From an uncultured Pseudomonadota bacterium (GTDB taxonomy: Bacteria > Myxococcota_A > UBA796 > SXON01), in contig CAIXRH010000243.1 of assembly GCA_903921785.1 (NCBI GenBank), positions 1 through 42,873 on the forward strand: 42,873 nucleotides of DNA, given 5' to 3'. The position numbers and the translations under genes are program-made. Position 1 is the stretch's first letter. Every line of letters begins with the position of its first letter. The notes beneath the pieces were generated by a model that made no database searches, was not told the origin of the DNA, and saw only the letters and a program-made list of their open reading frames with translations. Positions 10,824-29,043 of this stretch are shown here, piece by piece.

Positions 10824-11965
10824 CCTCCCTCCCTGGCGGTCGCGCCCATGGGCACGATCTGGATGTCGATGTCAGTGGCACCCCGGATGAGCCGCGAGAT
10901 CGGCCCCTCGTTCCACAGCTCCTGCCATCGGCTGCGCAGGCTTCCCCCGACGAGGATGTGCACGACGCCGTGCTCGCGGGCGAAGCCGAGGATCGACGCC
11001 ACCACGTCGGCGCCGTCGAGCTGCACCAGCTCGGCGCCCATCCGCTGCGCCGTCTCGAAGCTGTCGTGGAGGCGCCGTTCGGCGGCGCTGTCGAGCCGGT
11101 GGCCCGCCTCCGCAGGAGTGCGTACATGCACCACGTACCAGTGCGTGTTGAGGCGGCCGGCGATGCGCGCCGCGCGCTCCACGATCCGCCCGGGGTTCGG
11201 ACTCCGTGAGGCGAGGCACGCCAGCACCTTGCCTGCGCCGACCTGATCGCCGCGCGCGACCTGCCGGCGGTCGAGCGCTTCGGCGACCTCTCGGAGCGCC
11301 AGCTCCCGCAGGGTCTCCAGGTTCTCGGTGCGGAAGAACGAGGAGAGCGCCTGCTCCACCCGCTCGGGGGGGTAGATCTTTCCGGCGCGCAAGCGCTCCA
11401 CGAGATCCTCGGCGCTCAAGTCGAGGTTCACCACCTGGTCGGCCTCGCGGAGGAAGGCGTCGGGCACGGTCTCGCGCACACGGACGCCCGTCGCCCGCTG
11501 TACCACCTCGCCGAGCGACTGCAGGTGTTGCACGTTCATCGCGCAGATCACGTGGATCCCGGCGTCGGCGAGGTCGGCGACATCCTGGTAGCGCCAACGG
11601 TTCTTGAAGCCGGGCGGGTTGGTGTGGGGCAGCTCGTCCACCAGCACCACGGCGGGCTTTCGGGCGCAGACCCCCTCAAGGTCGAGCTCGTCGAGGTCGA
11701 GATCGCGGTAGCGAACCCGCTTGGGCGAGACGACCGGCAGGTCCCGGAGCTGGGCGACGGTGTCCGCCCGCCCGTGGGTCTCGATGAACCCGATGACCAC
11801 GTCCACCCCGCGCTCGCGGAGTTGGTGGGCCTCTTGGAGCATGCGGTAGGTCTTCCCCACGCCGGCGGAGGAGCCGATGTACACCTTCACCCGCCCGCGT
11901 TTGCCGCGTTGAACGAGCGCGAGGAAGTCCTCCGCCCGCCGGTCCCGGCCTTCCTGTTCCGTCAC
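10820..11965 (-). CDS. kdpD: Truncated KdpD: nucleotide-binding and USP domains only
   Basis: A GTG at 11965 overlapping the kdpC stop (GTGA) gives 381 residues, against about 890 for full KdpD. The KdpD N-terminal domain is complete, with Walker A GSSAGVGKT (residues 31-39), the conserved VVIGFIETHGR, VLVDELPHTNPPG and AMNVQHLQSL motifs. It is followed by a universal-stress-protein domain (about 235-375, LACLASRSPNPGRIVERAARIA to IQIVPMG). There is no membrane or kinase part. Similar kinase-less KdpD proteins are known from some cyanobacteria. In E. coli these domains sense cytoplasmic K+, ATP and c-di-AMP-type signals; here the output is probably passed to the separate kinase encoded immediately downstream. 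Confidence 0.92.
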   Translation of the reverse strand: MTEQEGRDRRAEDFLALVQRGKRGRVKVYIGSSAGVGKTYRMLQEAHQLRERGVDVVIGFIETHGRADTVAQLRDLPVVSPKRVRYRDLDLDELDLEGVCARKPAVVLVDELPHTNPPGFKNRWRYQDVADLADAGIHVICAMNVQHLQSLGEVVQRATGVRVRETVPDAFLREADQVVNLDLSAEDLVERLRAGKIYPPERVEQALSSFFRTENLETLRELALREVAEALDRRQVARGDQVGAGKVLACLASRSPNPGRIVERAARIAGRLNTHWYVVHVRTPAEAGHRLDSAAERRLHDSFETAQRMGAELVQLDGADVVASILGFAREHGVVHILVGGSLRSRWQELWNEGPISRLIRGATDIDIQIVPMGATAREGG

Positions 11966-12543
11966 CGAGCCTCCGGGAAACGTCGGTCCAGCGCGAGGTT
12001 CACCGCGAGGACGTTGACCCGGGGCTCGCCGAGGAAGCCGAGGTCGCGGCCGACGGTGAGCTCGTCGATGACCGCGCGGATGCGTGCCACGTCGACGCCG
12101 CGGGCGGCCGCGATGCGCGGCGCCTGCCAGAGCGCGGCGGCGGGGGGGAGCTCCGGGTCGAGGCCGGAGCCCGACGCGGTGAGGAGCAGCTCGGGCACGG
12201 GCCCAGGGGCCGCGGGGTTCTGCGCGAGCAGGGCGGCCTCGGTGGCCGCGCGACGATCGGCGAGCTTCTGGCTGGTCATCCCGAGGTTGGAGCCGCTGGA
12301 GGCGGCGGCGTCGTATCCTGCGCCGGCCGCGGACGGGCGCCCCTGGAGGTAGCCCGGGGAGCGGAACGCCTGCCCGATGAGCGACGAGCCGATCACGGCG
12401 CCGTCCTCGGCCCGAACGAGCGAGCCGTTCGCGGTTTCGGGGAGGGCGACCTGGGCGATCCCGGTGACCAGCGCGGGGTACACCAGACAGCAGAGCACGA
12501 GGAGGAGCGCAGTGGCGCGGAGGGACGCGGAGAGCATGTTCAC
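11962..12543 (-). CDS. kdpC: Potassium-transporting ATPase KdpC subunit
   Basis: This 193-residue protein has one N-terminal membrane segment ([22 protein letters not shown]) and the KdpC motifs [50 protein letters not shown] and [17 protein letters not shown]. KdpC is the periplasm-facing accessory subunit of the KdpFABC K+ pump. A GTG at 12543 overlaps the kdpB stop (GTGA); an ATG six bases later is the alternative start. The gene is of normal length. Confidence 0.95.
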
Positions 12544-14555
12544 ACCAGACCGAGGGTGACGAGGCAGAGGTCGACCAGCTTGATACCGATGAAGGGTGCA
12601 ACGAGACCGCCGACGCCGTACACCAAGACGTTACGCCGGAGCAGCGCCGGGGCGCCGAGGGCCCGGTAGGCCACGCCGCGCAGCGCGAGCGGGATCAGGA
12701 CTACGATGATCACCGCGTTGAAGATGACCGCGGAGAGGATCGCGCTCTGGGGCGTGGCGAGGCGCATCACGTTGAGCGCGGCCATCCCGGGGAAGACCGT
12801 CACGAAGAGCGCCGGGAGGATCGCGAAGTACTTCGAGACGTCGTTGGCGACGGAGAACGTCGTGAGCGTGCCGCGGGTCATCAGCAGTTGTTTGCCGACC
12901 TCCACCACTTCGAGGAGCTTGGTCGGGTTGCTGTCCAGGTCCACCATGTTGCCGGCCTCGCGGGCGGCCTGGGTGCCGGTACCCATCGCCACGCCCACGT
13001 CCGCCTGGGCGAGCGCGGGGGCGTCGTTGGTGCCGTCGCCGGTCATCGCGACCATGTGGCCCTTGCCCTGCTCGTCCCGGATGCGGGCGAGCTTCATCTC
13101 GGGGGTGGCCTCCGCGATGAAGTCGTCCACGCCGGCCTCTCGGGCGATCACCGCGGCGGTGCGCGGGTTGTCGCCGGTGATCATCACGGTGCGGATGCCC
13201 ATCGCCCGGAAGCGCTCGAAGCGCTCGCGGATCCCGCCCTTCACCACGTCGGTCAGGCGGATGACCCCGAGAATCCGCGCGTCGTCCGCGACGACAAGCG
13301 GGGTGCCGCCGAGGTCGCCGACAGCGTTGACCGCCGCGTCGACGGCCTGCGGGACACCGCCCCCGAGCGCGAGGACGTGGCGGCGCACCGCGTCCGCGGC
13401 GCCCTTGCGGAGCTGCCGCCCGTGCCAGTCGCAGCCGGACATCCGGGTGGCGGCGGTGAACGGCACGAAGGTCACGTGCGCCGGCTCCACGTCGCGGGCG
13501 CGGTAGCCGAACGTCTTGGCGAGCACGGCGATGGACCGGCCCTCCGGGGTGTCGTCGGCGATGGACGCGAGCTGCGCGGCGTCCGCGAGCGCCTCGGCGG
13601 TCACGCCGGGCGCCGGGATGAACTCCGTGGCCATGCGGTTGCCGAGGGTGATCGTGCCAGTCTTGTCGAGGAGGAGCACGTCCACGTCGCCGGCGGCCTC
13701 CACGGCGCGGCCGGAGAGCGCGAGCACGTTCTTACGGATGAGCCGGTCCATGCCGGCGATGCCGATGGCCGAGAGGAGCCCGCCGATGGTCGTGGGGATG
13801 AGGCACACCAGCAGCGCCACGGCGATCGACACGTCCAGGTGGAGCCCGGCGTAGGCGGCCGTGGGCATCAGGGTGACGACGGCGAGCAAAAACACGAGCG
13901 TGAGCGCCACCAGGAGGATGTGGAGCGCGAGCTCGTTGGGGGTCTTGCGGCGCTCAGCGCCTTCGACGAGGGAGATCATCCGGTCGAGGAAGCCCTCGCC
14001 GGGGTCCGCGGCCACCTTGATCACCACCCGATCGGAGAGCACGCGGGTGCCGCCGGTCACCGCGGAGCGGTCGCCGCCGGCTTCACGGACCACCGGCGCG
14101 GACTCGCCCGTCACCGCGGACTCGTCGACGGAGGCCACGCCCTCGACGATGTCGCCGTCGGCGGGGATGGGGTCGCCGGCTTCGCAGACGACGAGATCGC
14201 CCTTGCGGAGCTGACCGCTCGGTACGCGGTCTTCTTTCCCATCGACCAGGCGCCGCGCGGAGACGTCGCTACGCATCTTCCGGAGGGTGGCGGCCTGGGC
14301 CTTGCCCCTCCCCTCGGCGAGCGCTTCGGCGAAGTTGGCGAAGAGTACGGTGAACCACAACCAGACACTGACCGCGGCGGCGAACCCGTTGAGGTGCAGG
14401 CCGGCGAGCACGCTGGTGAGCAGCGCCCCGACGAACGTCACGAACATCACCGGGTTGCGGGCCTGCACGCGGGGGTCGAGCTTCACGAACGCGTCGCGGA
14501 CGGCCGGACGCACGAGCTCGGCGGCGAACATCGACTGCGGAGGGGGCTTGGACAT
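12540..14555 (-). CDS. kdpB: Potassium-transporting P-type ATPase KdpB subunit
   Basis: This 671-residue protein is the ATP-hydrolysing subunit of the high-affinity Kdp K+ pump. It carries the P-type ATPase motifs TGESAPV (A domain; the Ser phosphorylated for inhibition in E. coli is present), [11 protein letters not shown] (phosphorylated Asp), a KGAADAV-type nucleotide-binding motif, [10 protein letters not shown] and [22 protein letters not shown]. The membrane segments are as in known KdpB. It starts one base after the kdpA stop and is translationally coupled to kdpC. Length and motifs are complete, so an active pump is expected. Confidence 0.98.
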
Positions 14556-14556
14556 G

Positions 14557-16236
14557 TCAGTACCGGGTGGCGAGGGAGACGTGCTCGGCGATGGGGCCGA
14601 GCGCGAGGACCGGGAAGAACGTGAGCGCGCCGACGATGACGATCACCGAGGCGAGGAGCCCGGTGAACAGCGCGCCGTCCGTGGGGAAGGTGCCGGGGCC
14701 GGGGGCCACGGCGCGCTTGGCGGCGAGGTTCCCGGCGATGGCCAGCGCCGGGACCATCATGGCGAAGCGGCCGAAGAACATGGAGATCGCCAAGAGCGTG
14801 TCGTACCAGGGCGTGTTGGCGTTGAGCCCGGCGAACGCGGAGCCGTTGTTGCCGGTGGCGCTGGTGAACGCGTAGAGCAGCTCCGTCCAGCCGTGCGGCC
14901 CGGCGTTGTTGAGGCTCGACACGCCCCAGTCGGCGACGGAGGCCGAGCCCGCCGGAATGAGCACGAAAATGGGGAAGACGAGGATGTAGACCGCGGCGAG
15001 GGTCATCTCCCGCACCTCGATCTTCTTGCCGAGGAGCTCCGGGGTGCGGCCGACCATCAGGCCGGCGAGGAACACCGAGAGCACGACCATCACCAACACG
15101 CCGTAGAGGCCGGCGCCGACGCCGCCGAACACGACCTCGCCGAGGAGGATGTTCACCGCCGGTATGAGGCCGCCGAGCGGGGTGAAGCTGTCGTGCATCC
15201 CGTTGACCGCGCCGCAGGACGCGCTGGTGGTCACGCCGGCGAACAGGGAGCTGGCGGCCATCCCGAAGCGGGACTCCTTGCCTTCCCAGTTGCCGAGCCC
15301 GCCGAGCCACCCCGCTTCCGCCGCGTAGCAGGCGCCGGTGAGCACCAGGAACAGCCCGAACATCGACCCGAGGATGGCGTAGCCGTTCTTCACGTTCCGG
15401 CTCATCCGCCCGTAGGTGTGGACCAGCCCTGCCGGGATCAGGAAGATCGACACCATCTGGACGAGGTTGATCCAGGGAGAGGGGTCCTCGAACGGATGCG
15501 CGGCGTTGGCATTGAAGAAGCCGCCGCCGTTGGTGCCGAGCATCTTGATCGCCACCTGTGACGCGACGGGCCCCACGGCGAGCAGCTGGTCGGCGCCCTC
15601 AAGCGTGCGGGCGTGGACGTAGGCGGACCAGGTCTGCGGCGTGCCGCCGGTCACGAGCACCAACGCGTAGACGAAGCTCAGGGGGAGGAACACGTAGAGG
15701 TGCGCCCGCAGCAGGTCCCGCCAGAAGTTGCCCAGGGTCCCGGCGCGGTCCACGCGGGTGAGCCCGCGGGCCACCGCCATCGCCACCGCGAGCCCCACGG
15801 CTGCGGAGGTGAAGTTGTGGAACACCAGGCCGACCGCCTGGGAGAAGTACGAGAGGGTGCTCTCGCCGGCGTAGCTCTGCCAGTTGGTGTTGGTGGTGAA
15901 GCTGACCGCCGTGTTCAGCGCGAGGTGCCAGGAGAGGTCTCCGAAACCCTGCGGGTTGAACGGGAGGTGGGACTGGAAGCGCAGCACCACGAAGGTGAAA
16001 ATCAGCCCGACCGCCGAGAACGTGAGCACCGAGCCCGTGTACTCGCGGAAGCTCATCTCCCGACTGGGGTCCACGCCGATGAGGCGGTAGCCGAGGACCT
16101 CCGCGCGGCGGAGGGCGCCGCCGACCGGGGCGTCGTGCTCCTCCATGACGCGGTGCAGCCAGAGCCCCACGGGGAACGCGAAGGCGAGCACGATCGCTGC
16201 GAAGGACCAGATCTGGAACCAGCCGTTGGCGTCCAT
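14557..16236 (-). CDS. kdpA: Potassium-transporting ATPase KdpA subunit
   Basis: This 559-residue polytopic protein is the K+-binding, channel-like subunit of KdpFABC. The selectivity-filter loops are visible: [55 protein letters not shown] and [14 protein letters not shown]. The start ATG at 16236 lies one base after the kdpF stop. The length equals the family norm. Confidence 0.98.
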
Positions 16237-16752: not shown

Positions 16753-18099
<1,347 letters not shown>

Positions 18100-18115
18100 C
18101 TCCGGCGCGGACGCC

Positions 18116-19060
18116 TCAGTTATCCGGCTTGTCCCACTCGGCGTTCGGCCACATCGGCTTCGCGTCCGAACCATCGGCCTGCGTGCAGCCGATGAACCGC
18201 TCGGGGTTGTTGAGCACGCGCACCACGGCGTCGATGCCGAAGCGGGCGCTCAGCCCGTGGTCGATCCGCTCGTCGTACGTGAAGCGGATGTGCAGGCGGG
18301 GGCGCACCTGCACCTGCCCGTCGATCACCATGGGGGCCAGCTCGGTCTTCCCGAACATGATGAACAGCGGGCAGTTGCCGTATTCGTACAGGTGGTGGTA
18401 GCCGGCGCCCATGTTGAGGCTGCCCAGGTTCGCGACGAAGATGCTGGTGTGCATCGGATCGTCCTTGATGAAGAACCCGGGGAGGATGTTGTAGTAGTTC
18501 AACATGTTGATCCCGCTCGCCGCGAGGACGAGCAGGGGGCGGGGGAGGAGGTTGAAGAGGTCGAGCTCCTTGTCGCCCGAGGTCTTCACGCCGCTGCGCT
18601 CTTCCTTGATGCCACCGTTGACCCGGGCGCACCAGTCCTTGAAGGTCTCGCCGTCGATGAACTCGCGCTTGATCGTGCCGATCTTCGCCTCACGGTCGAG
18701 GCGCTTGCGGAGCATCGAGAAGGTGAGCCAGCGGCCGGAGCGGGTGTAGAGCCGGCGGCCTTCGACGAACCGGTTCATCGCCGGGGTGGCGGAGAGGCCG
18801 ATGCCCACGGCCGCGACCGTGGCGTGGGTGATGCCGGACTCGCAGGTGACCTTCACCTTCTCGAGCCAGGCGTTGAGCTTCGTCGCGTCGACGTACGCGT
18901 CGAAGTACACCATCGACTCGTTCTTCTTCGGCATCAGGTAGAACATGATGCGCCGGTAGGGCGGCACCTGGAGCAGCGTGCCGTCGGGACGGCTGGTCTT
19001 GAATTCCAGCAGCATCCAGAGGACGAAGACGACGACGCCGACGATTGCGTAGATGGACAT
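18116..19060 (-). CDS. Membrane-anchored E2-like acyltransferase (2-oxoacid dehydrogenase acyltransferase fold)
   Basis: The 314 residues begin with one membrane segment (MSIYAIVGVVVFVLWMLLEF) and continue with a catalytic-domain-like E2 fold of the chloramphenicol acetyltransferase superfamily: RRIMFYLMPKKNESMVYFDAYVDAT, ITHATVAAVGIGLSATPAMNRFV, VFVANLGSLNMGAGYHHLYEYGNCPLFIMFG, and the C-terminal RFTYDERIDHGLSARFGIDAVVRVLNNP. There is no lipoyl or subunit-binding domain, so it cannot serve in a normal dehydrogenase complex. The usual catalytic DHRVIDG motif is replaced by DERIDHG, with Glu at the His position. The acyl donor and acceptor are unknown. It is in the same run of genes as the Kdp regulator, 16 bases upstream. 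Confidence 0.75.
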   Translation of the reverse strand: MSIYAIVGVVVFVLWMLLEFKTSRPDGTLLQVPPYRRIMFYLMPKKNESMVYFDAYVDATKLNAWLEKVKVTCESGITHATVAAVGIGLSATPAMNRFVEGRRLYTRSGRWLTFSMLRKRLDREAKIGTIKREFIDGETFKDWCARVNGGIKEERSGVKTSGDKELDLFNLLPRPLLVLAASGINMLNYYNILPGFFIKDDPMHTSIFVANLGSLNMGAGYHHLYEYGNCPLFIMFGKTELAPMVIDGQVQVRPRLHIRFTYDERIDHGLSARFGIDAVVRVLNNPERFIGCTQADGSDAKPMWPNAEWDKPDN

Positions 19061-19932: not shown

Positions 19933-20874
19933 TCAGAACGGGGCGATGAACGGCCAGCTCATGACCCGCGTGGCGGTGACACAGCCCGCGAGCGGCTCGC
20001 CGTCGATGGCCAACTGCGCACACTCCCCGCAGAGCTCACCCGCGGCGCCGGTGGGGTTGGGGATGACGTTGGTGCTACCGCCACCGCCGCCGCCACCGCC
20101 ACCGGCGGTGTCTCCGGTGTCTCCGGTGTTGGCCGTGTCGCCCGCCGCGGGGGGCGGAGGCGGACCGGTGGGCGCGGCCGCAACATCGGCGGCCTGAAAG
20201 GTGAAGTAGCCGTCGTTCTGGGCGAACAGCGCGATGTTGCCCGCGGCGTGCTCGCCGTAGGTGCACCCATTGACCAGCGAGAGGGGGACGCGGTTCACGT
20301 CCACCTCGGCGGTGCCCCAGTCGCCGATGCCGACGGTCCCGTTGAGGTGATCCACGTAGTAGGTGCCGCCGTAGAAGGCGAAGCCGCCGGTGGACTCGTT
20401 CCAGAAGTCGAGCGTGTCCCCCGGGCCGTAGCTGGTCACGGCGAGACGGCTGGTGACCTTCTCCCCGGAGCCGGAGCCGGTGGGGGTCAGCTGCAGGGAG
20501 CCGAGGGCTGTCCACGGGCTGGGCACCCCGGCGACCGGACCGAAGTCGTTGAATTCCAGGGCGATCGAGGACGACGTGAAGGTGGCGGAGGCCGTGCCCT
20601 GCCAGCGATAGCCCGCCGAGTCGAGGCAGCCGTCGGCCCCCCCGGCGTCGATGTAGACCTGGCTGTCCGTAAGGTAGACCAGGGGGCAATCCCGGTAGTC
20701 TTCCAAGGCGAGCTGCGCGAGCGCCGCCCACGGTACGACCACCAGGTCGGGGGACGAAGCCGTGAGCAGATCGGGCGCGATCTCCTCCGTGAGCTTCCCC
20801 GCCTCGGACGGGATGGAGTCGGGCAGGCCCCCGCACGACGTGCAGGCGCTGAGCCAGAGGAAGAACAGGGTCAC
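19933..20874 (-). CDS. Lipoprotein encoded at the end of the tad operon
   Basis: A GTG start overlaps the stop of the upstream small lipoprotein gene (GTGA). The product has 313 residues with a lipobox (FFLWLSAC, Cys at residue 11). The mature part resembles an extracellular beta-sandwich domain: LVYLTDSQVYIDAGGADGCLD, GYRWQGTASATF, FYGGTYYVDHLNG. A low-complexity linker (DTANTGDTGDTAGGGGG, residues about 245-265) precedes a Cys-containing C-terminus (ELCGECAQ, GCVTATR). The gene is the last of the coupled tad series. No known Tad component has this make-up, so it may be a surface or pilus-associated lipoprotein. Confidence 0.75.
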   Translation of the reverse strand: MTLFFLWLSACTSCGGLPDSIPSEAGKLTEEIAPDLLTASSPDLVVVPWAALAQLALEDYRDCPLVYLTDSQVYIDAGGADGCLDSAGYRWQGTASATFTSSSIALEFNDFGPVAGVPSPWTALGSLQLTPTGSGSGEKVTSRLAVTSYGPGDTLDFWNESTGGFAFYGGTYYVDHLNGTVGIGDWGTAEVDVNRVPLSLVNGCTYGEHAAGNIALFAQNDGYFTFQAADVAAAPTGPPPPPAAGDTANTGDTGDTAGGGGGGGGGSTNVIPNPTGAAGELCGECAQLAIDGEPLAGCVTATRVMSWPFIAPF

Positions 20875-21113
20875 TTTTGACCTTCGACCGTGGCGGTCAC
20901 CGTCGGGTCGCCCTTTTCTTCGTCGCTCATCGCCTTGAGCGTGTTGGCGCGCGCGGCGAGCGCCTCTTCGCCGGAGATCGGGTAGGCGTCGTTCTTGACA
21001 CTCTCACGATCCAGCGTGGCCTGGGTGTTGAGCGCTTCGTAGTACGAACGCCCGAAGTCGTACTGGAGGTGCGTCGGCTGGCCGCAGCCGAGGACGAAGA
21101 ACAGCAGGGTCAT
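20871..21113 (-). CDS. Small lipoprotein in the tad operon
   Basis: This 80-residue protein has a short lipobox (MTLLFFVLGC, Cys at 10) and a helical, charged remainder (YDFGRSYYEALNTQATLDRES). Its ATG overlaps the stop of the TPR gene upstream (ATGA), and its stop overlaps the start of the next lipoprotein gene (GTGA). Size and position recall the small RcpB/CpaD-like lipoproteins of Tad loci, but I see no sequence signature for that. The expected location is the inner face of the outer membrane. Confidence 0.75.
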   Translation of the reverse strand: MTLLFFVLGCGQPTHLQYDFGRSYYEALNTQATLDRESVKNDAYPISGEEALAARANTLKAMSDEEKGDPTVTATVEGQK

Positions 21114-21844
21114 GGAGAGCCCTCCTTGAGCAGACGGGAAAGGGCGACCACCGCGAGTGCGTGGCCGGGTTGGGCGGTGACGGCCGCCTGATAGCTGGTG
21201 AGCGCCGCCGCGCGGTCGCCGTGTTGTTCACAGGCGACGCCGAAATTGTAGCGGGCGTCAGGTTCGGCGGACGCGGCGCGGAACATCTCCAGGGCTTCGT
21301 CGTAGCGGTCGAGGCGTACGTAGGCGAAGCCGAGGTTGTTGCGGGCGCGCGTGGAGCTCGGGTCGGCGGCGAGGGCCGCCTGGAACGCGGGGATGGCCAG
21401 CTCCGGCTTGCCGACCGCGAGGAGCACGAACCCGTAGTTGTTCTGGATGTCAGGGTTCTTCGGTTCGAACTTCACGGCCTTGGAGAGGGAGGCCTCGGCG
21501 GCGGGGAGCTTGCCGAGATCGGCCTGGAGCACCCCGAGGGCGGACCACGCGTCCCCCGACCGGGGGGCTCGCTTCACGGCCGCTTCGAGTGCCCTCTCGG
21601 CGTCATGGTCGAGCCCGCGTTGGTGCATGGCGCGCCCCTGCGCGACGTCGATTCGCGGGTCGTCCGCGCCCTGCTTGTGCATCTCGGCCACCATGGCCAT
21701 CGCCTGCTCGGCCATCCCGTTGTCCACCAGCGCATCGAGCACGTCGAGCTGCGTGGCCAGCCGAACCCGATCGTCGGAGAGGTCGGGCTGCGGGGACGCC
21801 TCGGGAGGTCCGGCCAGGGCCGCGGCAAAGGCGAGGAGGATCAC
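21110..21844 (-). CDS. TPR protein, TadD-like
   Basis: A GTG start overlaps the tadC stop (GTGA). The 244 residues begin with a signal-like stretch (MILLAFAAALAGPPEA) and contain at least four tetratricopeptide repeats from about residue 75 to 240, such as GDAWSALGVLQADLGKLPAAEASLSKAVKFEPKNP and the following NNYGFVLLAVGKPELAIPAFQAAL unit. TadD proteins are TPR lipoproteins needed for Flp pilus assembly; here no lipobox Cys is present, so the product is periplasmic or peripherally attached. The place directly after tadC matches the usual tadD position. Confidence 0.8.
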   Translation of the reverse strand: MILLAFAAALAGPPEASPQPDLSDDRVRLATQLDVLDALVDNGMAEQAMAMVAEMHKQGADDPRIDVAQGRAMHQRGLDHDAERALEAAVKRAPRSGDAWSALGVLQADLGKLPAAEASLSKAVKFEPKNPDIQNNYGFVLLAVGKPELAIPAFQAALAADPSSTRARNNLGFAYVRLDRYDEALEMFRAASAEPDARYNFGVACEQHGDRAAALTSYQAAVTAQPGHALAVVALSRLLKEGSP

Positions 21845-22857
21845 GGTGCCACCCCGTGGGTCTGGGCGACGGGGAAGAGGATGTTCTTCACCTTCACCAG
21901 CGCCGGCCCGAGGAGGACGATGAGCAGCGTGGGGAGGATGAAGAGGATCATCACCACGGTGAGCTTCGGCGAGACCTGGGCGGCCTTCGTCTCGGCGCGC
22001 TGCATCCGCTTGACCCGGATGTGGCCGGAGTGGATGCGCAAGGCGCGAGCCACGGAGGAGCCGAAACGTTCCGCTTGGATGAGCACGTTCACCAGGGAAG
22101 TGACGTCGTCGATGCCGATGCGCTCATCCAGTCGCCGCAGCGCGTCCACCCGGGGGACACCCGCGGTGACCTCGTGGTTGACCAACTGGAGCTCCAGGGA
22201 GAGCTCGGGGGCCGCGATCTCCATCTCCTCGGCGACCCGGCGGAAGCCAGCGTCGAGCCCAAGGCCCGCTTCGACGGCGGAGACCAAAAGGTCGAGCGCG
22301 TCGGGGAACGCGGAGAGGATCTTCTCGCGTCGCTTCTGAAGGGTGTTCTGAACGTAAAGGTAGGGGGCGTAGTACCCCAGGGTAGCGCCACCGAACACCC
22401 CGAAGAGGTACCACACCACCCCCTTGAGCCGGGTGGCCACCGTGATCGTGGACTCAACGTCGAGGCTCGCGTCGATCGTGGCGTCGGGGTTGGGGTCGGC
22501 GCCGGTGCGGGACCGGAACCAGAGGACGAAGAGCAGCCCGATGAGCGCGACGGCCACCAGCCCGACCGTGCGGCTGGCGCTGTAGACCTCCACCGCGTTT
22601 CTCTGCCGGAACCCGGCTTGAGAGAGCCACTTTCGGGTCTGGGCGAGCTCGTCGACGCTGCCCTTGGAGAGGCTCGCGGCCGACCTCGTGAGGGCGTTGA
22701 GCCGGGTGGGAAGGCTCTCCCGCTCGGCGCCGCCAGTGAACTCGGCCAGACGATCCGCGGCGGTGCGTTCGGGCGAGACGTACTGCCAGAGCGCGTACAT
22801 GAAGGCGAGGACGGCCACCACGGCCACCCCGAGCGCGAGGAGCACGGAGTTGTCCAT
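21841..22857 (-). CDS. tadC: Tad pilus inner-membrane protein TadC
   Basis: The ATG at 22857 overlaps the tadB stop by one base (TGATG) and gives 338 residues. It is a GSPII_F-type membrane protein: hydrophobic segments near residues 6-25, about 90-110, about 140-165 and about 300-325, with the typical cytoplasmic block LSAFPDALDLLVSAVEAGLGLDAGFRRVAEE and QAERFGSSVARALRIHSGHIRVKR. TadB and TadC form the membrane platform of the Flp pilus assembly machine. A longer frame upstream is not needed because it would lie inside tadB. Confidence 0.9.
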   Translation of the reverse strand: MDNSVLLALGVAVVAVLAFMYALWQYVSPERTAADRLAEFTGGAERESLPTRLNALTRSAASLSKGSVDELAQTRKWLSQAGFRQRNAVEVYSASRTVGLVAVALIGLLFVLWFRSRTGADPNPDATIDASLDVESTITVATRLKGVVWYLFGVFGGATLGYYAPYLYVQNTLQKRREKILSAFPDALDLLVSAVEAGLGLDAGFRRVAEEMEIAAPELSLELQLVNHEVTAGVPRVDALRRLDERIGIDDVTSLVNVLIQAERFGSSVARALRIHSGHIRVKRMQRAETKAAQVSPKLTVVMILFILPTLLIVLLGPALVKVKNILFPVAQTHGVAP

Positions 22858-23801
22858 CAGATCTCCACCTTTGAGATCTCGCCCATGATGAAGACCCCGA
22901 TGACGAACCAGATGCCCCCGCCGATCGCCAACGCGAGGCCGAGCGGATCGCTGACGAGCGGGTGGAGGTAGGCCGGCGCCTTCATCATGATGATCAGCGC
23001 GATGACGAAGGGCAGCCCACCGAGAATCCACGCGGTGAACCGGGACTCGGAGGTGAGGGCCGACACCTTGCCGTGGAACACGAACCGCTCACGGATCATA
23101 TGGGCGATGTTCTGCAGGATCTCCACGAGGTTGCCGCCAGTGTCCCGCTGGAGGAGCACCGAGCTCACAAAGATGCGCAGGTCGAAGCTCTGCGGGTTGC
23201 GCCGACAGAGGTTCTGGAAACACTCACGGGTGTCCCGGCCGAGGTTCTGTTCCTCGAAGACCCGCCCGAACTCGGAGGAGAGCGGCTCGGGCATCTCCTC
23301 GGAGACCAACCGGAGGCTCTCGCCGATGCCGTGGCCGGCCTGCAGGGAGCGGGCGAGGAGATCGAGCCCGTCGGGGAGCTGCTCGGTGAGGCGCTGAACC
23401 CTGGCGTTCGCGGCGCGGGAGAGCAGCCACAGCGGGATCACCCCGCAGAACACGCCGATCAGCGCGGCCGGGGACTTCAACCACACGAACAGCAGGATCG
23501 TGGGGGCGAGGCCGAAGAGCACGCAGCGACGGAGAAGGGTCCCTGCGGAGAACGGGCTGCCGGCGGAGCGGAGCGTCTCGTCGATCCAGCCGGAGAGGCC
23601 CGCCCGCGCGCCGCCCGCGCCGAAGCGCACCAGCGGCACCATCGCCTTGTCTGGGGCGGTGCCCAGTCGGCGGGCGATCTCCCGCTGCGCCTCTTCCTTC
23701 TGGGCGGTCCACGCCCAGAAGGCGAGCTGCCCGGCGAGGATGATCAGCGCGACGACGACCGCGATCGCCACGAGGGTGAAGAGGTTGCTGCTCTCAGACA
23801 T
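22857..23801 (-). CDS. tadB: Tad pilus inner-membrane protein TadB
   Basis: The ATG at 23801, eight bases inside the end of tadA, gives 314 residues starting MSESSNLFTLVAIAVVVALI. The GSPII_F domain contains TEQLPDGLDLLARSLQAGHGIGESLRLVSEEM and LRIFVSSVLLQRDTGGNLVEILQNIAHMIRER, the standard TadB motifs, between membrane segments at about 9-30, 95-130, 255-275 and 285-310. It is the partner of TadC in the pilus assembly platform and is driven by the TadA ATPase. Confidence 0.92.
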   Translation of the reverse strand: MSESSNLFTLVAIAVVVALIILAGQLAFWAWTAQKEEAQREIARRLGTAPDKAMVPLVRFGAGGARAGLSGWIDETLRSAGSPFSAGTLLRRCVLFGLAPTILLFVWLKSPAALIGVFCGVIPLWLLSRAANARVQRLTEQLPDGLDLLARSLQAGHGIGESLRLVSEEMPEPLSSEFGRVFEEQNLGRDTRECFQNLCRRNPQSFDLRIFVSSVLLQRDTGGNLVEILQNIAHMIRERFVFHGKVSALTSESRFTAWILGGLPFVIALIIMMKAPAYLHPLVSDPLGLALAIGGGIWFVIGVFIMGEISKVEI

Positions 23802-25137
23802 CCTGCTCGAACCGGAAGAGTTCGTGGTGGAGATCGATGCCGTACTTCTTGAGCCGCGACGCGAACCGGGGCCGGACGCCGGTTGCCCGGAAGGTGCCGC
23901 GCACGCGCCCGTCTTCATCGATCGTCTTCTGATCGAAGGTGAAGATGTCCTGGGTGGTGACGACGTTGCCTTCCATGCCGATCACCTCGGTGACGGCCAG
24001 CACGCGACGGGAGCCGTCGTTGAGGCGATCGAGCTGGATGATCACGTCGACCGCGCGGGCGATCATCTCGCGGATGTTTTTGTCGGAGAGGTTGGGCATG
24101 CCCATGCCGACCATGGTCTCGAGGCGGGCGACGGCGTCCCGCGTGCTGTTCGCGTGCACCGTGGCGAGCGAACCATCGTGACCGGTGTTCATCGCCTGGA
24201 GCATGTCGATCGCCTCGCTCGAACGGATCTCACCGAGGATGATCCGGTCGGGTCGCATACGGAGGCAGTTCTTCACCAGGTCGCGCTGGGTGACTTCGCC
24301 CTTGCCCTCGACGTTGGGCGGGCGCGTTTCGAGGCGGACCACGTGGCTCTGCTGGAGCTGGAGCTCCGCCGAGTCCTCGATGGTGATCACCCGCTCGCCT
24401 TCGGGGATGAAGCCCGAGAGCACGTTGAGCATCGTGGTCTTTCCGGAGCCCGTGCCGCCGGAGATGATGCAGTTGAGCTTGCTCTTGACCACGCCCCGGA
24501 GGACTTCCATCATCGGCCGCGGGCACGAGCCGATGGCGATGAGGTCTTCGCTGGTGATCTGCCGGGTACCGAACCGGCGGATGGAGACTGCGGGACCTTC
24601 CAACGCCAGCGGCGGGATGATCGCGTTGAAGCGGCTCCCGTCGGCGAGGCGCGCGTCCACCATCGGGCTCGTCTCGTCGATGCGGCGGCCGACCGCGCTC
24701 ACGATGCGCTCGATGACCTGCATCAGGTGGCGGTTGTCGTGGAACCGCGCATCCACCCGCTGGAGGAGGCCGCGCTTCTCCACCCACACCTGATCGTAGG
24801 CGTTGACCAGGATGTCGGAGATGTCGGGGTCCTTCAAAAGCGGCTCAAGCGGACCGAGGCCGAGGATGTCGTCGAGGATCTCTTCGACCAGCCGCTCCCG
24901 CTCCATGCGGTTGAGCGGGAGGGCGCGCCCCTCCACCTCGATGGTGAGGGTCTCCCTCAGCTTTTCGGCGAGCTCGTCCCGAGGGGTGGAGCCCACCTGC
25001 TCGAAGTCCAGCGACTCGATGATCTCGTTGTGGAGGGCGCGCTTGATGCGCTCGTACTCCTCCTGGGTGGTCGAACCAGGCGTCTGGCGGAATCGCGCCT
25101 GGGCGCCGCGGACACGATCGATGAGTCGGGAGGACAC
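23794..25137 (-). CDS. tadA: Flp pilus assembly ATPase TadA (CpaF)
   Basis: This 447-residue secretion ATPase of the VirB11/GSPII_E class has a GTG start 11 bases after the tadZ stop. It has the CpaF N-terminal domain (EEILDDILGLGPLEPLLKDPDISDILVN, RRIDETSPMVDARLADGSRFNAIIPP), Walker A GGTGSGKT (227-234), the Asp box EDSAEL, Walker B RPDRIILGEIRSSEAIDML, and the His box TGHDGSLATVHANS. It energises pilin polymerisation or depolymerisation. Confidence 0.95.
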   Translation of the reverse strand: MSSRLIDRVRGAQARFRQTPGSTTQEEYERIKRALHNEIIESLDFEQVGSTPRDELAEKLRETLTIEVEGRALPLNRMERERLVEEILDDILGLGPLEPLLKDPDISDILVNAYDQVWVEKRGLLQRVDARFHDNRHLMQVIERIVSAVGRRIDETSPMVDARLADGSRFNAIIPPLALEGPAVSIRRFGTRQITSEDLIAIGSCPRPMMEVLRGVVKSKLNCIISGGTGSGKTTMLNVLSGFIPEGERVITIEDSAELQLQQSHVVRLETRPPNVEGKGEVTQRDLVKNCLRMRPDRIILGEIRSSEAIDMLQAMNTGHDGSLATVHANSTRDAVARLETMVGMGMPNLSDKNIREMIARAVDVIIQLDRLNDGSRRVLAVTEVIGMEGNVVTTQDIFTFDQKTIDEDGRVRGTFRATGVRPRFASRLKKYGIDLHHELFRFEQDV

Positions 25138-25148
25138 GTGGACCTACC

Positions 25149-26336
25149 TCAGCGCCCGAACAGGCGGCTCATGAAGCCCTGCGGCTTCGATTCATCCGCG
25201 ATCTCCTCGCCGGTGACGAGGCCGACCATGCGCCCGATGTCCCGGGCCCCTTCCGACTTCCGATCGATCTCCCGGAGCAACGAGCCTTCGGCGATCGCTT
25301 TGAGGGCGCCCCGGTCGTCGGCCACGGTGATGTCCACCTTGCGACTCAGGTTCTGCTGGATGTCGTCCAGCGAGAGCTGGGCGGTGCGCTTGTCCCACCG
25401 GTTCACGACGAGGCGGATGCGCTCTTTCTCCAAGCCCAGCTTGTCGATGAATTGCAGGCGCCGCCAGGTGTCCTTCACGCTCGGGATGTCGGGCGTGGTG
25501 ATCAGGAGGATGTGGTCGGCCACAGTGATCGCGGTGACGGAGGCTTCGTCCAGGGTGCTGCCGCAGTCGGCGACCACGTACTGGTAGGAGCGGGCGGCCG
25601 CGGTGACCACGCGCATGACGAGGTCTCCCCTGGGCTCTTCGCGCTGCTCCAGGTCGACGGGCTGGCCGAGGACATGGATCTTGCTGCCGTGCACCGCCAC
25701 GCTGCCGGCCAACATGCGCTCATCGAGCCGGCCGATGTTGCGGAACACGTCGGCGATGCTCTGAGGGAGCGTGAGGTCGAGGAACGCGGCGACGTCGCCC
25801 ATGGCGAAGTCCAGGTCGACCACGCAGACCCGATGCACCGGGCTGAGCTCGCCGGCGAGGTTGGTGGCGAGGAAGGTCGTGCCCACGCCGCCCTTGCTGC
25901 CCCACACCGCGACGACTTCTCCGGCATCTTCGTCGCGCCCGTCGGAGAACGTGGCTTCGTGGACCGCCTGGCGGAGGAGCTCCGCGTCGGCCGGGAGCAC
26001 GACGAACTCCCGGTAGCCCGCGCGCATGGCCGCGCGGATCCGGTCCGGATCGGCGCCGGAGGAGAGCGCCACGAGGTGGATCTTGGCGCCCGCTTCGTTG
26101 AGGATCAGCGGCGCCAGGCGCACGGCTTCTTCCGGATCTCCGTCAAAACCCGTGATCACCACGTCCGGCCGCTGCCGGCGCACGGCGGTGAGCGCGTCGT
26201 CGTAGGAGACGGGGGTGGTGGGGAGGACGGCCTCGGTGCCGAGCGTCTCCCGGATCTGGCCCATGGCGCGTGCGTCGACACCGACGACGATGACCGAAGC
26301 TGCGTTGGAGGGGCCGCTGGGGTTCTGGGAACGCAT
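25149..26336 (-). CDS. tadZ: Tad pilus localisation ATPase TadZ (CpaE)
   Basis: The 395 residues comprise an N-terminal atypical receiver domain (about 14-125: VIVVGVDARAMGQIRETLG, RPDVVITGFDGD, AAMRAGYREFVVLP) and a MinD/ParA-type ATPase with a deviant Walker A GSKGGVGTT (146-154). Further motifs are VVDLDFAMGD and VVADCGSTLDEAS. TadZ/CpaE places the Tad machine at its cellular site. The start lies three bases after the secretin stop. Confidence 0.92.
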   Translation of the reverse strand: MRSQNPSGPSNAASVIVVGVDARAMGQIRETLGTEAVLPTTPVSYDDALTAVRRQRPDVVITGFDGDPEEAVRLAPLILNEAGAKIHLVALSSGADPDRIRAAMRAGYREFVVLPADAELLRQAVHEATFSDGRDEDAGEVVAVWGSKGGVGTTFLATNLAGELSPVHRVCVVDLDFAMGDVAAFLDLTLPQSIADVFRNIGRLDERMLAGSVAVHGSKIHVLGQPVDLEQREEPRGDLVMRVVTAAARSYQYVVADCGSTLDEASVTAITVADHILLITTPDIPSVKDTWRRLQFIDKLGLEKERIRLVVNRWDKRTAQLSLDDIQQNLSRKVDITVADDRGALKAIAEGSLLREIDRKSEGARDIGRMVGLVTGEEIADESKPQGFMSRLFGR

Positions 26337-26339
26337 CGG

Positions 26340-27713
26340 CTACCGCTTGAGCCCGTAGCTGCCGGTGGGCTGCGCGGTGCGGCTTCCCGCCTCCAGCAGC
26401 TGACCCATCATGAACAGCTCGAAGTCGTTGGGGTTGTAGCCCTCCGTCGTTCCCGGGGGCGGTGGGACCTCCCCGGCCGCCATCGGGCGTACCAGGGTGG
26501 GCGTGACGAAGACGACGAGCTCCGTCTCGCGCCGCTCATGCTTCACGTAGCGGAAGAGCGCGCCGACGATGGGTAGATCGCCGAGGAGCGGCACGGTGGC
26601 GCGGGTGGACTCCACGCGCTCGTCCAGCATGCCGGCCATCGCGAAGGTCTTCCCGCTGGCGATGCGCAGCTGGGTCTTCACCTTGCGCGAGATGAGGCCG
26701 GGGACCTCGATGCCGGACACGCGCGTTGCGGAGTTGGTGTCGATGTCGGACACCTCCACGTAGGTGCGCACGTCGATCACCTCGCCGTCGAGCACGGTGG
26801 GTACGAAGGTGAGCTTCACCCCGTATTCTTTGTACTCGATGGTGATGCGGTTGCCGACCTGGGAGACGGGGATCGGCACCTCGCCGCCGACGAGCGCCTC
26901 GGCCTGCTGGCCGGAGAGCGCGACCAGCGTGGGCTGGGCGAGGGTCTTCGCCAGGGAATACTGCTCCAGCACGCTGAGCACCGCCGCGATGTTCACTGCC
27001 CCGGTGACCATTCCGACGATGTTGAACGCGTCGGCCGAGGCGGCCTGGGCCACGCCGGAATTGATGTTCGGCGTGGTGTCGGCGCTCCAGAGCCGCGTAT
27101 CGAGCGCGGAGGTGTTCGCCGGGCCCTGGACGGCGCCATAGCCGGTGCCCAGGCCGCCGATGACGTTGAGCCCCAGCTCCCGCATGCCGGTGCGGCTGAG
27201 CTCAGCGAAGACCACCTTGAGCTGCACCTGGTTGTCGCCCGAGACCTGGAGGAGGTTGATGAACTTCTCGTCGTACACCCGGGCGATCGACGCGACGCGC
27301 TCGAGGGTCTCCATGTCGGAGACGGTGCCTTCGACCACCAGGCGGTCGCGCAGCGGGTAGACCCGCGGCGGGGTGCCGGTGTGGACGGTCTCCCGGATGC
27401 GGCGCTCCATGTCGCTGAGGTCGTGGGTGACGATGACCCGGTAGGCCTTGGGGTGGGTCTCGTCGCCGCGGAACCACACGTAGAGGTCGGTGTTGCCGAC
27501 CTGCAAGCCACGAACCTGGTATTGGCCCTCTTCGAGCAGCCGGAGCTCCGCGATCGAGGGGTCGCTCAGGAGCACCCGGGCGATCGGGCGACCTTCGTTC
27601 TTGATGACCGAGGTGCCGACCCCCGCGTCGATCACCGAGGGCTCTTCTGCCCACGCCGGCGCCGCGGCGACCATCGCCGCAGCCGCAACCGCCGTCCTCA
27701 GATGCCAGCTCAT
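26340..27713 (-). CDS. rcpA: Tad pilus outer-membrane secretin RcpA (CpaC)
   Basis: The 457 residues start with a signal peptide (about 1-22, cleaving after AWA) followed by the secretin/TonB short N-terminal domain (VLLSDPSIAELRLLEEGQYQVRGLQVGNTDLYVW), a BON-like segment (RVYPLRDRLVVEGTVSDMETLERV) and the secretin core (about 230-410) including ALVGGEVPIPVSQ and the closing motif PLLGDLPIVGALFRYVKHERRETELVVFVTPTLV. It forms the outer-membrane pore for the Flp pilus. Its ATG overlaps the cpaB stop (ATGA). Confidence 0.95.
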   Translation of the reverse strand: MSWHLRTAVAAAAMVAAAPAWAEEPSVIDAGVGTSVIKNEGRPIARVLLSDPSIAELRLLEEGQYQVRGLQVGNTDLYVWFRGDETHPKAYRVIVTHDLSDMERRIRETVHTGTPPRVYPLRDRLVVEGTVSDMETLERVASIARVYDEKFINLLQVSGDNQVQLKVVFAELSRTGMRELGLNVIGGLGTGYGAVQGPANTSALDTRLWSADTTPNINSGVAQAASADAFNIVGMVTGAVNIAAVLSVLEQYSLAKTLAQPTLVALSGQQAEALVGGEVPIPVSQVGNRITIEYKEYGVKLTFVPTVLDGEVIDVRTYVEVSDIDTNSATRVSGIEVPGLISRKVKTQLRIASGKTFAMAGMLDERVESTRATVPLLGDLPIVGALFRYVKHERRETELVVFVTPTLVRPMAAGEVPPPPGTTEGYNPNDFELFMMGQLLEAGSRTAQPTGSYGLKR

Positions 27714-28705
27714 TTGTTCTTCCTCTTGGTACCGGAGGCGCTCTCAGTGGTGCCACTCGGGTTGAACTGCACGTCGGTGCGGCTGGATCCCTGGATGACG
27801 ATGGCCCGGGGGCCGCCGTTGTCCACCGGGGCGGTGGCTTCGATCTTCTTCGGCGCTTCTGCAGGCTGCCCTTCGAGTCCCGGGATCAGCGTGCGGGAGG
27901 TCTTCACGCCTTCGTTGGCGTATTGCATGGTGTCGATGTCGCTACGAAGGACCACGTAGATGTCCCCCTGGGCGACGGCGAGGGCGAGCTTCTCGGCCTC
28001 GTCGGGCGTCACCTCGAGGGTGATGCTCGGCTTGAGCTTCACCACGGGGGCCTTGGGGTCCTTCTTCGCGACCTCCACCTTCTTCGTGCCATCCGCCTGG
28101 TTGGTCACCTTGGTGGGTGCGGGGGCGCTCCCCTGGTCGAGCGCGCCGCCGACCGCGAGCACCTTGATGGCCTGAAGGATGGTGTCGGTGACCCACTTGG
28201 CGCTGGTCGCGGTGGGGTCTTCCGGCTTGATGGTCACGATGATGTCGACGTAGTTGCCGGGCTGGAGCAGGCCGGCCACCGCGTCCTCGGTGTTGGTGGC
28301 GACGGTCATCGCCCGCTTGCTCGGCTGGACGATCGCGTTGAGGCCCACGCCTGCGTCGGGACGGGCGATGCGCTCGATACGGACGGGCTCATCGGCGAGG
28401 ATTCGCTCCCGGGGGGTGCGCCCGACGAGGTCCGCGGCGAGGCTGTAGGTGCCTTCGGCGGGGATGCTCGAAGGCGCCAACGGGACGACCTTCACGTCCT
28501 CGGCGGTGATGGCCATGCCGACCATGAGGTCGTGGGTGGCGATGACGACGTCGGTCGTCTCTTTCGGCTTCTGGGCCTCGCGGAGCTGGTCCTGGTTCTG
28601 CTTGATGACCCGATACACGATCGCGGCCGCGAACACCGCCAGGAGAATGGAGCCCAGGAGGAAGAGCCCGGCTCGGGATCGTCCCTGGTTCTGCTGCCTT
28701 TGCAT
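27710..28705 (-). CDS. cpaB: Flp pilus assembly protein CpaB (RcpC)
   Basis: The 331 residues have one N-terminal membrane segment (about 12-31, AGLFLLGSILLAVFAAAIVY), a SAF domain (about 52-112: VVIATHDLMVGMAITAEDVKVVPL, then VGRTPRERILADEPV) and the RcpC-type core (RAMTVATNTEDAVAGLLQPGNYVDIIVTI, TILQAIKVLAVG, TLEVTPDEAEKLALAVAQGDIYVVLR). The C-terminal 50 residues form a low-complexity tail. The gene leads the assembly operon behind its own putative promoter and a terminator that separates it from the pilin gene. Confidence 0.92.
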   Translation of the reverse strand: MQRQQNQGRSRAGLFLLGSILLAVFAAAIVYRVIKQNQDQLREAQKPKETTDVVIATHDLMVGMAITAEDVKVVPLAPSSIPAEGTYSLAADLVGRTPRERILADEPVRIERIARPDAGVGLNAIVQPSKRAMTVATNTEDAVAGLLQPGNYVDIIVTIKPEDPTATSAKWVTDTILQAIKVLAVGGALDQGSAPAPTKVTNQADGTKKVEVAKKDPKAPVVKLKPSITLEVTPDEAEKLALAVAQGDIYVVLRSDIDTMQYANEGVKTSRTLIPGLEGQPAEAPKKIEATAPVDNGGPRAIVIQGSSRTDVQFNPSGTTESASGTKRKNK

Positions 28706-28739
28706 CTGCTGCTACTCCGTGAGCGCGGTTGGGCCGGGT

Positions 28740-28759
28740 GGGCCGCGCATGCGCGGCCC
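28740..28759. promoter_or_regulatory. 20-base perfect palindrome at the likely cpaB transcription start
   Basis: GGGCCGCGCATGCGCGGCCC is fully symmetric over 20 bases. It begins 35 bases upstream of the cpaB ATG and covers the predicted transcription start of the promoter at 28761-28789. This position fits a repressor operator or a 5' leader hairpin that controls translation of the Tad assembly genes. Confidence 0.5.
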
Positions 28760-28760
28760 C

Positions 28761-28789
28761 AGTGTATGGGATTCCCTCCGCCCGCGCAA
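28761..28789 (-). promoter_or_regulatory. Putative sigma-70-type promoter of the tad assembly operon
   Basis: On the minus strand, TTGCGC (28789-28784) and TACACT (28766-28761) are separated by 17 bases, with the start expected near 28754, about 50 bases before the cpaB ATG. The match is 3/6 at -35 and 4/6 at -10, plausible in such GC-rich DNA but not proof. Confidence 0.4.
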
Positions 28790-28816
28790 TCATGACAGGA
28801 ACGGAGGGACAGGGCC

Positions 28817-28858
28817 CAAAAACGACGAGGGCGGGCAGCCCTTGGGGCCGCCCGCCCA
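28817..28858 (-). terminator. Intrinsic terminator after the flp pilin gene
   Basis: On the minus strand an imperfect hairpin (arms GGGCGGGCGGCCC and GGGCTGCCCGCCC, small loop, 28857-28829) is followed by TCGTCG and then five Ts (28822-28818). It begins 15 bases after the flp stop. It should uncouple the strongly needed pilin message from the assembly genes that follow. Confidence 0.75.
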
Positions 28859-28872
28859 GGCGGCAGAGCCGA

Positions 28873-29043
28873 CTAGCCCGCAGAGGCGCTGTCGACCGCG
28901 CCGGAGATCTGGGAGAAGAGCGCGTCGAGGCTGTCACCGAGCGCGGTGAGGGCCACGATGATCGCGACGGAGATGAGGCCGGCGATGAGGCCGTACTCGA
29001 TCGCGGTGGCGCCGGTTTCGTCCTGGATGAGCTGCTTGATCAT
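28873..29043 (-). CDS. flp: Flp/Fap-type pilin
   Basis: The ATG at 29043, with GAGGAA eight bases upstream, gives a 56-residue Flp pilin. The short leader MIKQLIQDETG ends at the expected prepilin peptidase site before ATAIEYGLIAGL, with Glu at +5 and Tyr at +6 of the mature form, the Flp signature. One hydrophobic helix and a Ser/Asp-rich end follow. It is the major pilus subunit assembled by the downstream Tad genes. The processing peptidase (TadV/CpaA) is not in this window. Confidence 0.95.
   Translation of the reverse strand: MIKQLIQDETGATAIEYGLIAGLISVAIIVALTALGDSLDALFSQISGAVDSASAG

Follow-up and report, generated by a model that had tools for sequence, protein, structure and literature searches.

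A small lipoprotein encoded beside TadD in Tad pilus loci of a Myxococcota order and its proposed place at the outer-membrane secretin

Introduction

How the secretins of Tad pilus machines reach the outer membrane and are held there is unsettled. TadD of Pseudomonas aeruginosa is reported to be a lipoprotein that serves as the pilotin of the secretin RcpA and binds its C-terminus (PMC10499894), whereas Caulobacter needs CpaD and can dispense with its TadD orthologue CpaO (PMC13170226); a dodecamer model of CpaD fits the density around the Caulobacter secretin (PMC13170226). The loss of the tetratricopeptide repeat (TPR) lipoprotein Y4yS has been described as lowering the secretin of a Tad-derived type III secretion system (PMC4311626). 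In the present study, we analyzed a Tad operon on a contig of 42,873 nucleotides (CAIXRH010000243.1 of assembly GCA_903921785.1, hereafter the window) from an uncultured bacterium of the GTDB lineage Myxococcota_A; UBA796; SXON01. The operon ends in two genes for lipoproteins, which we named LipS and LipL, and we consider it fairly probable that LipS works with RcpA and TadD at the Tad outer-membrane gate and that LipL is an optional lipoprotein of the gate or exit.

The locus resembles the described systems only in part. CpaD (PF09476) is also a Tad outer-membrane lipoprotein, the C-terminal tail of which resembles the small proteins encoded after rcpA in other families, and these are linked to LipS by intermediates; however, CpaD has approximately 220 amino acids (aa) and an OmpA-like N-terminal domain and is encoded after the secretin, whereas LipS has 80 aa, appears to comprise the tail only, and is encoded after tadD. 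A small lipoprotein of 98 aa, SMa0164/Blr3501, occurs in the rhizobial secretin/TPR block, for example in pilQ2-sma0164-sma0166 of S. meliloti (PMC10934763), but the order there is secretin, lipoprotein, TPR protein, and its direct hhalign value with LipS was 4.8%. TadD of P. aeruginosa shares its TPR nature with TadD of the window, and the docking on the RcpA C-terminus reported in PMC10499894 has a parallel in a conserved RcpA tail here; in contrast to the P. aeruginosa lipoprotein, TadD of the window lacks a cysteine in its signal region. The Kil predation system of Myxococcus is a Tad-type machine of the same phylum with several minor-pilin tip sets encoded apart (PMC8460266, PMC12075869); it is described in PMC8460266 as lacking TadD and RcpB, whereas the operon of the window has TadD and LipS.

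Results

Linkage of both lipoprotein genes to the Tad machine

The operon lies on the minus strand in the order flp-cpaB-rcpA-tadZ-tadA-tadB-tadC-tadD-lipS-lipL. The features that concern the outer-membrane part and the two lipoproteins are as follows.

26340..27713, minus strand: rcpA/cpaC, outer-membrane secretin (PF00263 and PF13629)
26343..26369, minus strand: RcpA C-terminal tail PTGSYGLKR, candidate docking tail for TadD (conservation across loci; P. aeruginosa precedent)
21110..21844, minus strand: tadD, pilotin-like TPR protein with a cysteine-free signal peptide, here not a lipoprotein (TPR families, PilW-like)
20871..21113, minus strand: lipS, small lipoprotein of 80 aa with lipobox-like VLGC, putatively in the outer membrane (order-wide linkage, profiles)
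20913-21086, within lipS: mature core matched by a profile built without any LipS of its order
19933..20874, minus strand: lipL, lipoprotein of 313 aa with GTG start and lipobox-like LSAC
Residues ~65-226 of LipL: beta-meander domain (AlphaFold2 model)
20032..20169, minus strand, residues ~236-281 of LipL: disordered Pro/Gly/Thr/Asp linker (predicted local distance difference test [pLDDT] <50 at 230-236 and 244-280)
19936..20031, minus strand, residues 282-313 of LipL: C-terminal CGxC...C...WPFxxPF module

Four-base overlaps join tadC/tadD (GTGA), tadD/lipS (ATGA), and lipS/lipL (GTGA), and GGAGG precedes lipS. No Pfam or NCBIfam family matched LipS or LipL, with LipS giving sub-threshold rows only. 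An earlier note on this DNA, made from the letters alone, had described the gene content, coordinates, lengths, and linker, all of which were correct.

The lipS-tadD-tad arrangement is not a chance occurrence; it recurs in every relative with the operon. The window is the whole contig G000:C243 of a metagenome-assembled genome (MAG) of 7.48 Mb in 362 contigs, and the relatives compared were draft genomes, largely MAGs, which carry Deltaproteobacteria, Proteobacteria, or Myxococcota labels (a few evidently wrong); some gene starts, including those of tadB and tadC, were set by codon score. Among 38 genomes of the order, LipS was present in 33 and rcpA was found in 33, and LipS was present at every locus of these genomes at which rcpA and tadD were both visible; four rcpA loci without LipS on the same contig were judged to be cut by contig ends. 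A phylum-wide profile search detected LipS in 43 of 284 genomes, 40 of which belong to the window's order. At all 38 LipS loci retained (the window and L061-L097; six matches with E >0.1 were left out), tadD lies directly 5' of LipS. The 15 strong matches of LipL in the 38 genomes were confined to the family of the window, and in each case lipL immediately follows lipS, while 25 other rows (E 0.0015 to 1), most of which cover the low-complexity linker and the C-terminal region, were left out. Of the 18 main loci in this family, 15 carry lipL; it is missing from the other three (G013, G015, and G018), which have a complete machine, and from all four secondary LipS loci. Both lipoprotein genes are part of this Tad type, as the earlier note had proposed; a distribution mostly away from tad genes in relatives was looked for and was not seen.

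Two further observations concern the module to which LipS belongs. In G011:C108 (L091) and G018:C99 (L092), an rcpA-tadD-lipS block is separate from the other tad genes, which in G011 lie nearby on the opposite strand. The C106 locus in the genome of the window carries a Tad inner-membrane set without rcpA, tadD, and lipS. Since LipS tracks the split-off rcpA-tadD blocks and is absent at C106, it is assigned to the outer-membrane module. Genes of the CpaB type were present in 37 of the 38 genomes, frequently at loci without lipS. Moreover, rcpA, lipS, and lipL have been lost from the genus members G001, G003, and G008, the decayed loci of which (L163, L161, and L162, respectively) lack tadA, tadB, tadC, tadD, lipS, and lipL; the remnants are cpaB in all three, a flp call in both G003 and G008, and, in G008, also tadZ and an rcpA stub. 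Both genes that flank the operon, for an LPG_synthase_TM protein (PF03706) and a secreted protein of 200-230 aa, have been kept. The disappearance of lipS and lipL with the machine while the flanks stay argues that both serve the Tad machine.

LipS and small lipoproteins of other Tad loci

We compared 18 additional rcpA regions, the majority of which belong to families and classes other than those of the window. One small lipoprotein is encoded after tadD in L171, L172, L174, L177, L179, L181, and L183, and after rcpA in L176, L178, L182, L185, L186, and L187; L175, L180, L184, and L188 were not judgeable by gene order. A small lipoprotein is found once per Tad locus, in the post-rcpA or the post-tadD position, and never in both where both sites are visible. 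With a profile built from the post-rcpA proteins and that of L172 (A5), 38 of 284 genomes were matched, and additional members appeared in both gene positions. Within the order, the matches of this profile at E<=0.01 were LipS of G018 (both loci), G020, G024, G032, G124, G198, and G235, apart from one other match (G017:C141). A profile of post-tadD and post-rcpA lipoproteins without the LipS proteins of the order recovered 30 of the 38 LipS loci at E<=1, that of the window with an E of 0.01.

Profile-profile comparisons were performed with hhalign on the mature parts, the boundaries of which were set by eye, with 40 column shuffles each as a null; earlier, smaller alignment sets had mostly given weaker values. 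LipS against the post-tadD set gave 95.8% and a score of 43.3 (best shuffle, 13.6), and against the post-tadD and post-rcpA sets combined 91.8%. The post-tadD set matched the post-rcpA set at 97.2%, above the 40 shuffles, and the latter matched alphaproteobacterial small lipoproteins at 92.2% and CpaD tails at 88.7%, in the last case also above 40 shuffles. In the joint alignment, a lipobox cysteine precedes a region near (F/Y/W)-G-x-(A/S), approximately 10 residues beyond which there is a glutamine; a further region containing G and A ends near a tyrosine or arginine. The mature part of LipS, of approximately 70 aa, appears to correspond to the tail region alone, without the OmpA-like N-terminal domain of CpaD.

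From these comparisons, LipS seems to belong to an uncatalogued family of small lipoproteins, one per Tad locus, encoded after rcpA or tadD. No library family matched the members, and PF09476 did not match LipS (E up to 1) or ten related small proteins (E up to 10), while a true CpaD scored 207 bits as a control. In the literature searched, a stand-alone CpaD-tail or post-TadD lipoprotein family was not described, the nearest being SMa0164 (PMC10934763). The earlier note had offered the lipoproteins as candidate replacements for RcpB or minor-pilin functions; by gene order and profiles, LipS is a plausible counterpart of the lipoprotein in the CpaD/RcpB position, whereas the minor-pilin part did not hold.

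A regular expression for a LipS-like motif gave nothing usable in three plasmid Tad loci, one for the lipobox found a lipidated TadD and no clear small lipoprotein in a Cupriavidus locus, and tblastn of one post-rcpA protein against plasmids returned one match, which was spurious. On a Bradyrhizobium plasmid (L158 7821-9854), a Tad-type secretin and a CpaD lipoprotein adjoin type III secretion genes, which fits a Tad origin of the rhizobial type III secretin.

TadD lipidation and the RcpA tail

TadD of the window has a TPR fold by its matches to TPR families and PilW-like proteins, and its first 45 residues contain no cysteine and hence no lipobox. Of the TadD proteins encoded beside LipS, 37 were readable (L076 was not), among which 10 had a clear lipobox (L081, L082, L086, L087, L088, and L093-L097), two were ambiguous (L072 and L074), and 25 had none. 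In the window's family, none of the TadD proteins at its 18 main loci had a clear lipobox (two were ambiguous), while a lipobox was found in 9 of 10 readable TadD proteins of further Myxococcota loci. Judging from these sequences, the loss of TadD lipidation probably took place inside this order, whereas LipS was retained. Because the TadD lipobox has been lost in the window's lineage, LipS may be the sole remaining lipid anchor of the RcpA-TadD complex there. A strict rule, by which LipS would occur only where TadD lacks a lipid, was rejected because 10 LipS loci have both. Most loci share a C-terminal RcpA tail of the form P(T/S)GxxG(L/M)xR.

Structure and divergence of LipL

An AlphaFold2 model based on ten sequences showed LipL as a largely confident antiparallel beta-meander (mean pLDDT 77.5; 136 residues with a pLDDT of at least 90), behind which lie a linker predicted to be disordered (residues 244-280) and a short C-terminal segment, in which C282, G283, C285, C298, and F309 are invariant in the 10 sequences. 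The LipL proteins are 28-60% identical to that of the window, whereas full-length TadA matches reach 79-94%, and LipL is the least conserved operon protein, or within 2 percentage points of it, in each of 13 relatives. LipL is a rapidly evolving, beta-rich accessory lipoprotein that is found in one family and is possibly exposed.

Fold searches with LipL gave a best Foldseek E of 0.13 and VIA Z scores of at most 9.9, to beta-barrels; the rows for OspA, JlpA, barrels, and OSBP domains were all in or near the tool's stated noise range. JlpA and OspA are also lipoproteins with extended antiparallel sheets, but their Z scores of 6.6 and approximately 6, a root-mean-square deviation of approximately 6, and 6-10% identity are within this noise level. 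No OmpA-like or adhesin family stood out in the fold search, which excludes nothing, and a sequence search of the PDB with the LipL alignment gave one match (E 0.94).

The remaining operon and other Tad loci in the genome

The locus is a Tad (type IVc) pilus assembly operon, which holds a Flp pilin, CpaB, a secretin, the TadA ATPase, and the two platform proteins TadB and TadC. Its remaining genes are as follows.

28873..29043, minus strand: flp, major pilin of 56 aa (PF04964, E 9.7e-18)
27710..28705, minus strand: cpaB/rcpC, periplasmic alignment protein (TIGR03177, 183 bits; PF16976)
25149..26336, minus strand: tadZ/cpaE, TadZ-like ATPase (AAA_31/ParA; weak TadZ_N)
23794..25137, minus strand: tadA/cpaF, ATPase (PF00437; TIGR03819, 334 bits, under the cut-off of 373)
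22857..23801, minus strand: tadB, platform protein (PF00482, T2SSF; start from codon score)
21841..22857, minus strand: tadC, platform protein (PF00482, T2SSF; start from codon score)

The contig had no match to PF01478 or PF07811, and the statement of the earlier note that TadV and TadE/F/G are lacking is accurate for the contig and not for the genome. Two PF01478 prepilin peptidases are encoded on G000:C214 and G000:C263, elsewhere in the genome as the note had expected. The C214 peptidase is a TadV-like protein of 165 aa and lies in a Tad/Kil-like locus (L154 7459-13874) with small Flp-like proteins, CpaB, a secretin, a TadZ-TadA fusion (731 aa), and a TadB-like protein; the CpaB and peptidase of this locus recur in most members of the window's family. 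Six TadE (PF07811) matches are distributed over C275, C131, C106, and C127, and TadG-like PF13400 proteins lie beside TadE on C275, C106, and C131, one on C131 having a weak VWA match; the PF13400 match in the TadG-like gene of L150 was under the cut-off, and L151 and L152 also matched. In G007, G010, and G012, which represent two sister species, lipL is directly followed by one gene for a TadG-like protein and two for TadE, and the TadG-like protein of G007 has a VWA match. With TadE/TadG on other contigs and behind lipL in relatives, the lipoproteins are therefore not stand-ins for minor pilins.

Several loci merit separate mention. TadG-like minor pilins with VWA-like domains, likely at the pilus tip, are encoded at L065 7379-8557, L090 7633-8751, and L152 8666-9859. 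The locus on G000:C106 (L151 2387-9192) has the order cpaB-tadZ-tadA-tadB-tadC-TadG-TadE-TadE, with no secretin, TadD, or LipS in the fetched stretch, and this inner-membrane set may borrow the secretin module of the window. In the window itself, positions 9009-16236 hold a Kdp potassium transport-like protein set, recognized by reading and not by family search, which adjoins a sigma-54 response regulator at 16753-18174 (PF00158/PF00072).

Discussion

In the present study, gene linkage, co-loss, the family relationship of LipS, and the loss of the TadD lipobox were computed, and from the comparative data we infer a membrane location, binding, a pilotin role, and supply in trans. LipS would be anchored in the outer membrane and hold the secretin ring, the passage for the Flp pilus, and it probably helps to insert and brace this ring. 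It may be regarded as a stand-alone, shortened relative of the CpaD tail. In the window's lineage, the pilotin would consist of two parts, in which TadD binds the C-terminus of RcpA and LipS provides the lipid anchor. LipL would be an optional outer-membrane lipoprotein that is produced together with LipS and probably located where the pilus exits, with a flexible linker carrying its conserved C-terminus, which is rich in cysteine; it may either brace the gate or contact the outside. For prepilin processing and the tip of the pilus, the machine would rely on other loci of the genome, namely, the TadV-like peptidase of G000:C214 and the TadE/TadG sets of C131, C275, and C106.

Several results weigh against the assignment of LipS and LipL to the secretin gate. 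One member of the order, G078 (L173), has rcpA and tadD without a LipS-like gene and is the sole exception. LipS as a direct homologue of CpaD was rejected, with hhalign values of 0.7% against one CpaD and 0.12% against five CpaD tails, and only the chain was retained; this chain runs through intermediate proteins, and a related profile had itself been used to find some of them. Compared directly with the post-rcpA proteins, LipS gave 2.2%, with 2 of 100 shuffles scoring higher, and 11.5% with more sequences; single rhizobial small lipoproteins gave 4.8% (the SMa0164/Blr3501 comparison above) and 11%. Modelled alone, LipS yielded a poor model (pLDDT 62.6; predicted template modelling score 0.29) with short helices and no stable fold, which would be compatible with a peptide that becomes structured upon binding to a partner. 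Ten LipS loci also have a lipidated TadD, and LipS is not a simple substitute for the TadD lipid. For LipL, PDB fold and sequence searches found no recognizable relative.

Other explanations were considered for the two lipoproteins. The proposal that both replace the minor pilins TadE/F/G or form a pilus-surface adhesin draws on the absence of TadE/F/G from the window contig, on the beta-rich, fast-evolving nature of LipL and its flexible linker, and on the weak fold match of LipL to the surface lipoprotein JlpA (Z 6.6). However, the genome itself has six TadE matches as well as TadG-like genes, TadG-TadE-TadE follows lipL in G007, G010, and G012, LipS and LipL carry lipoboxes instead of prepilin leaders, and the LipL fold matches are inside the noise level; replacement of minor pilins is mostly refuted and was rejected as a role of the pair, and we regard this proposal as a whole as improbable. 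It also appears unlikely that LipS is a chaperone or signaling lipoprotein merely co-transcribed with tad, for example tied to an NtrB/NtrC-like pair. A histidine kinase and a sigma-54-type regulator are indeed encoded behind lipS in L077, L079, L082, L083, L085, L089, L097, and L114, and the lack of a stable fold in LipS would be in keeping with such a role, but LipS is retained without these regulators in the window and its family, accompanies rcpA-tadD alone in L091 and L092, and has counterpart genes that adjoin rcpA in other families. Irrespective of LipS, the NtrB-like kinase and sigma-54 NtrC-like regulator of these other families of the order possibly control the pilus.

LipL may, instead of being a surface protein, brace the secretin or the periplasmic gate and, in this lineage, take the place of the domain by which CpaD binds peptidoglycan. 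The GTGA overlap of lipL with lipS, its loss with the machine, and its position adjoining the outer-membrane module are consistent with this, as is the OmpA-like domain that CpaD has (PMC13170226) and LipS does not. Nevertheless, lipL is absent from the main loci of G013, G015, and G018, which have a complete machine, and from the four secondary LipS loci, and fold comparisons gave rows in or near the noise range, such that a bracing role is doubtful, albeit worth considering. We prefer the view of LipL as an optional lipoprotein of the gate or exit beside LipS, RcpA, and TadD.

We suggest, more tentatively, that many diderm Tad machines have a small lipoprotein, from a single overlooked family and equivalent to the CpaD tail, that clamps the secretin, and that in the window's lineage the pilotin is split into an unlipidated TadD and LipS, with LipL as a further gate or exit protein. 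What is new is the small Tad-locus lipoprotein family itself, which is proposed from profile comparisons. If this is true, a small lipoprotein that occurs once per locus and that profile chains connect to the CpaD tail would reconcile the P. aeruginosa and Caulobacter modes of holding the secretin. It would also provide a short candidate for a secretin clamp, including in Myxococcota, in which Tad-like pili serve predation.

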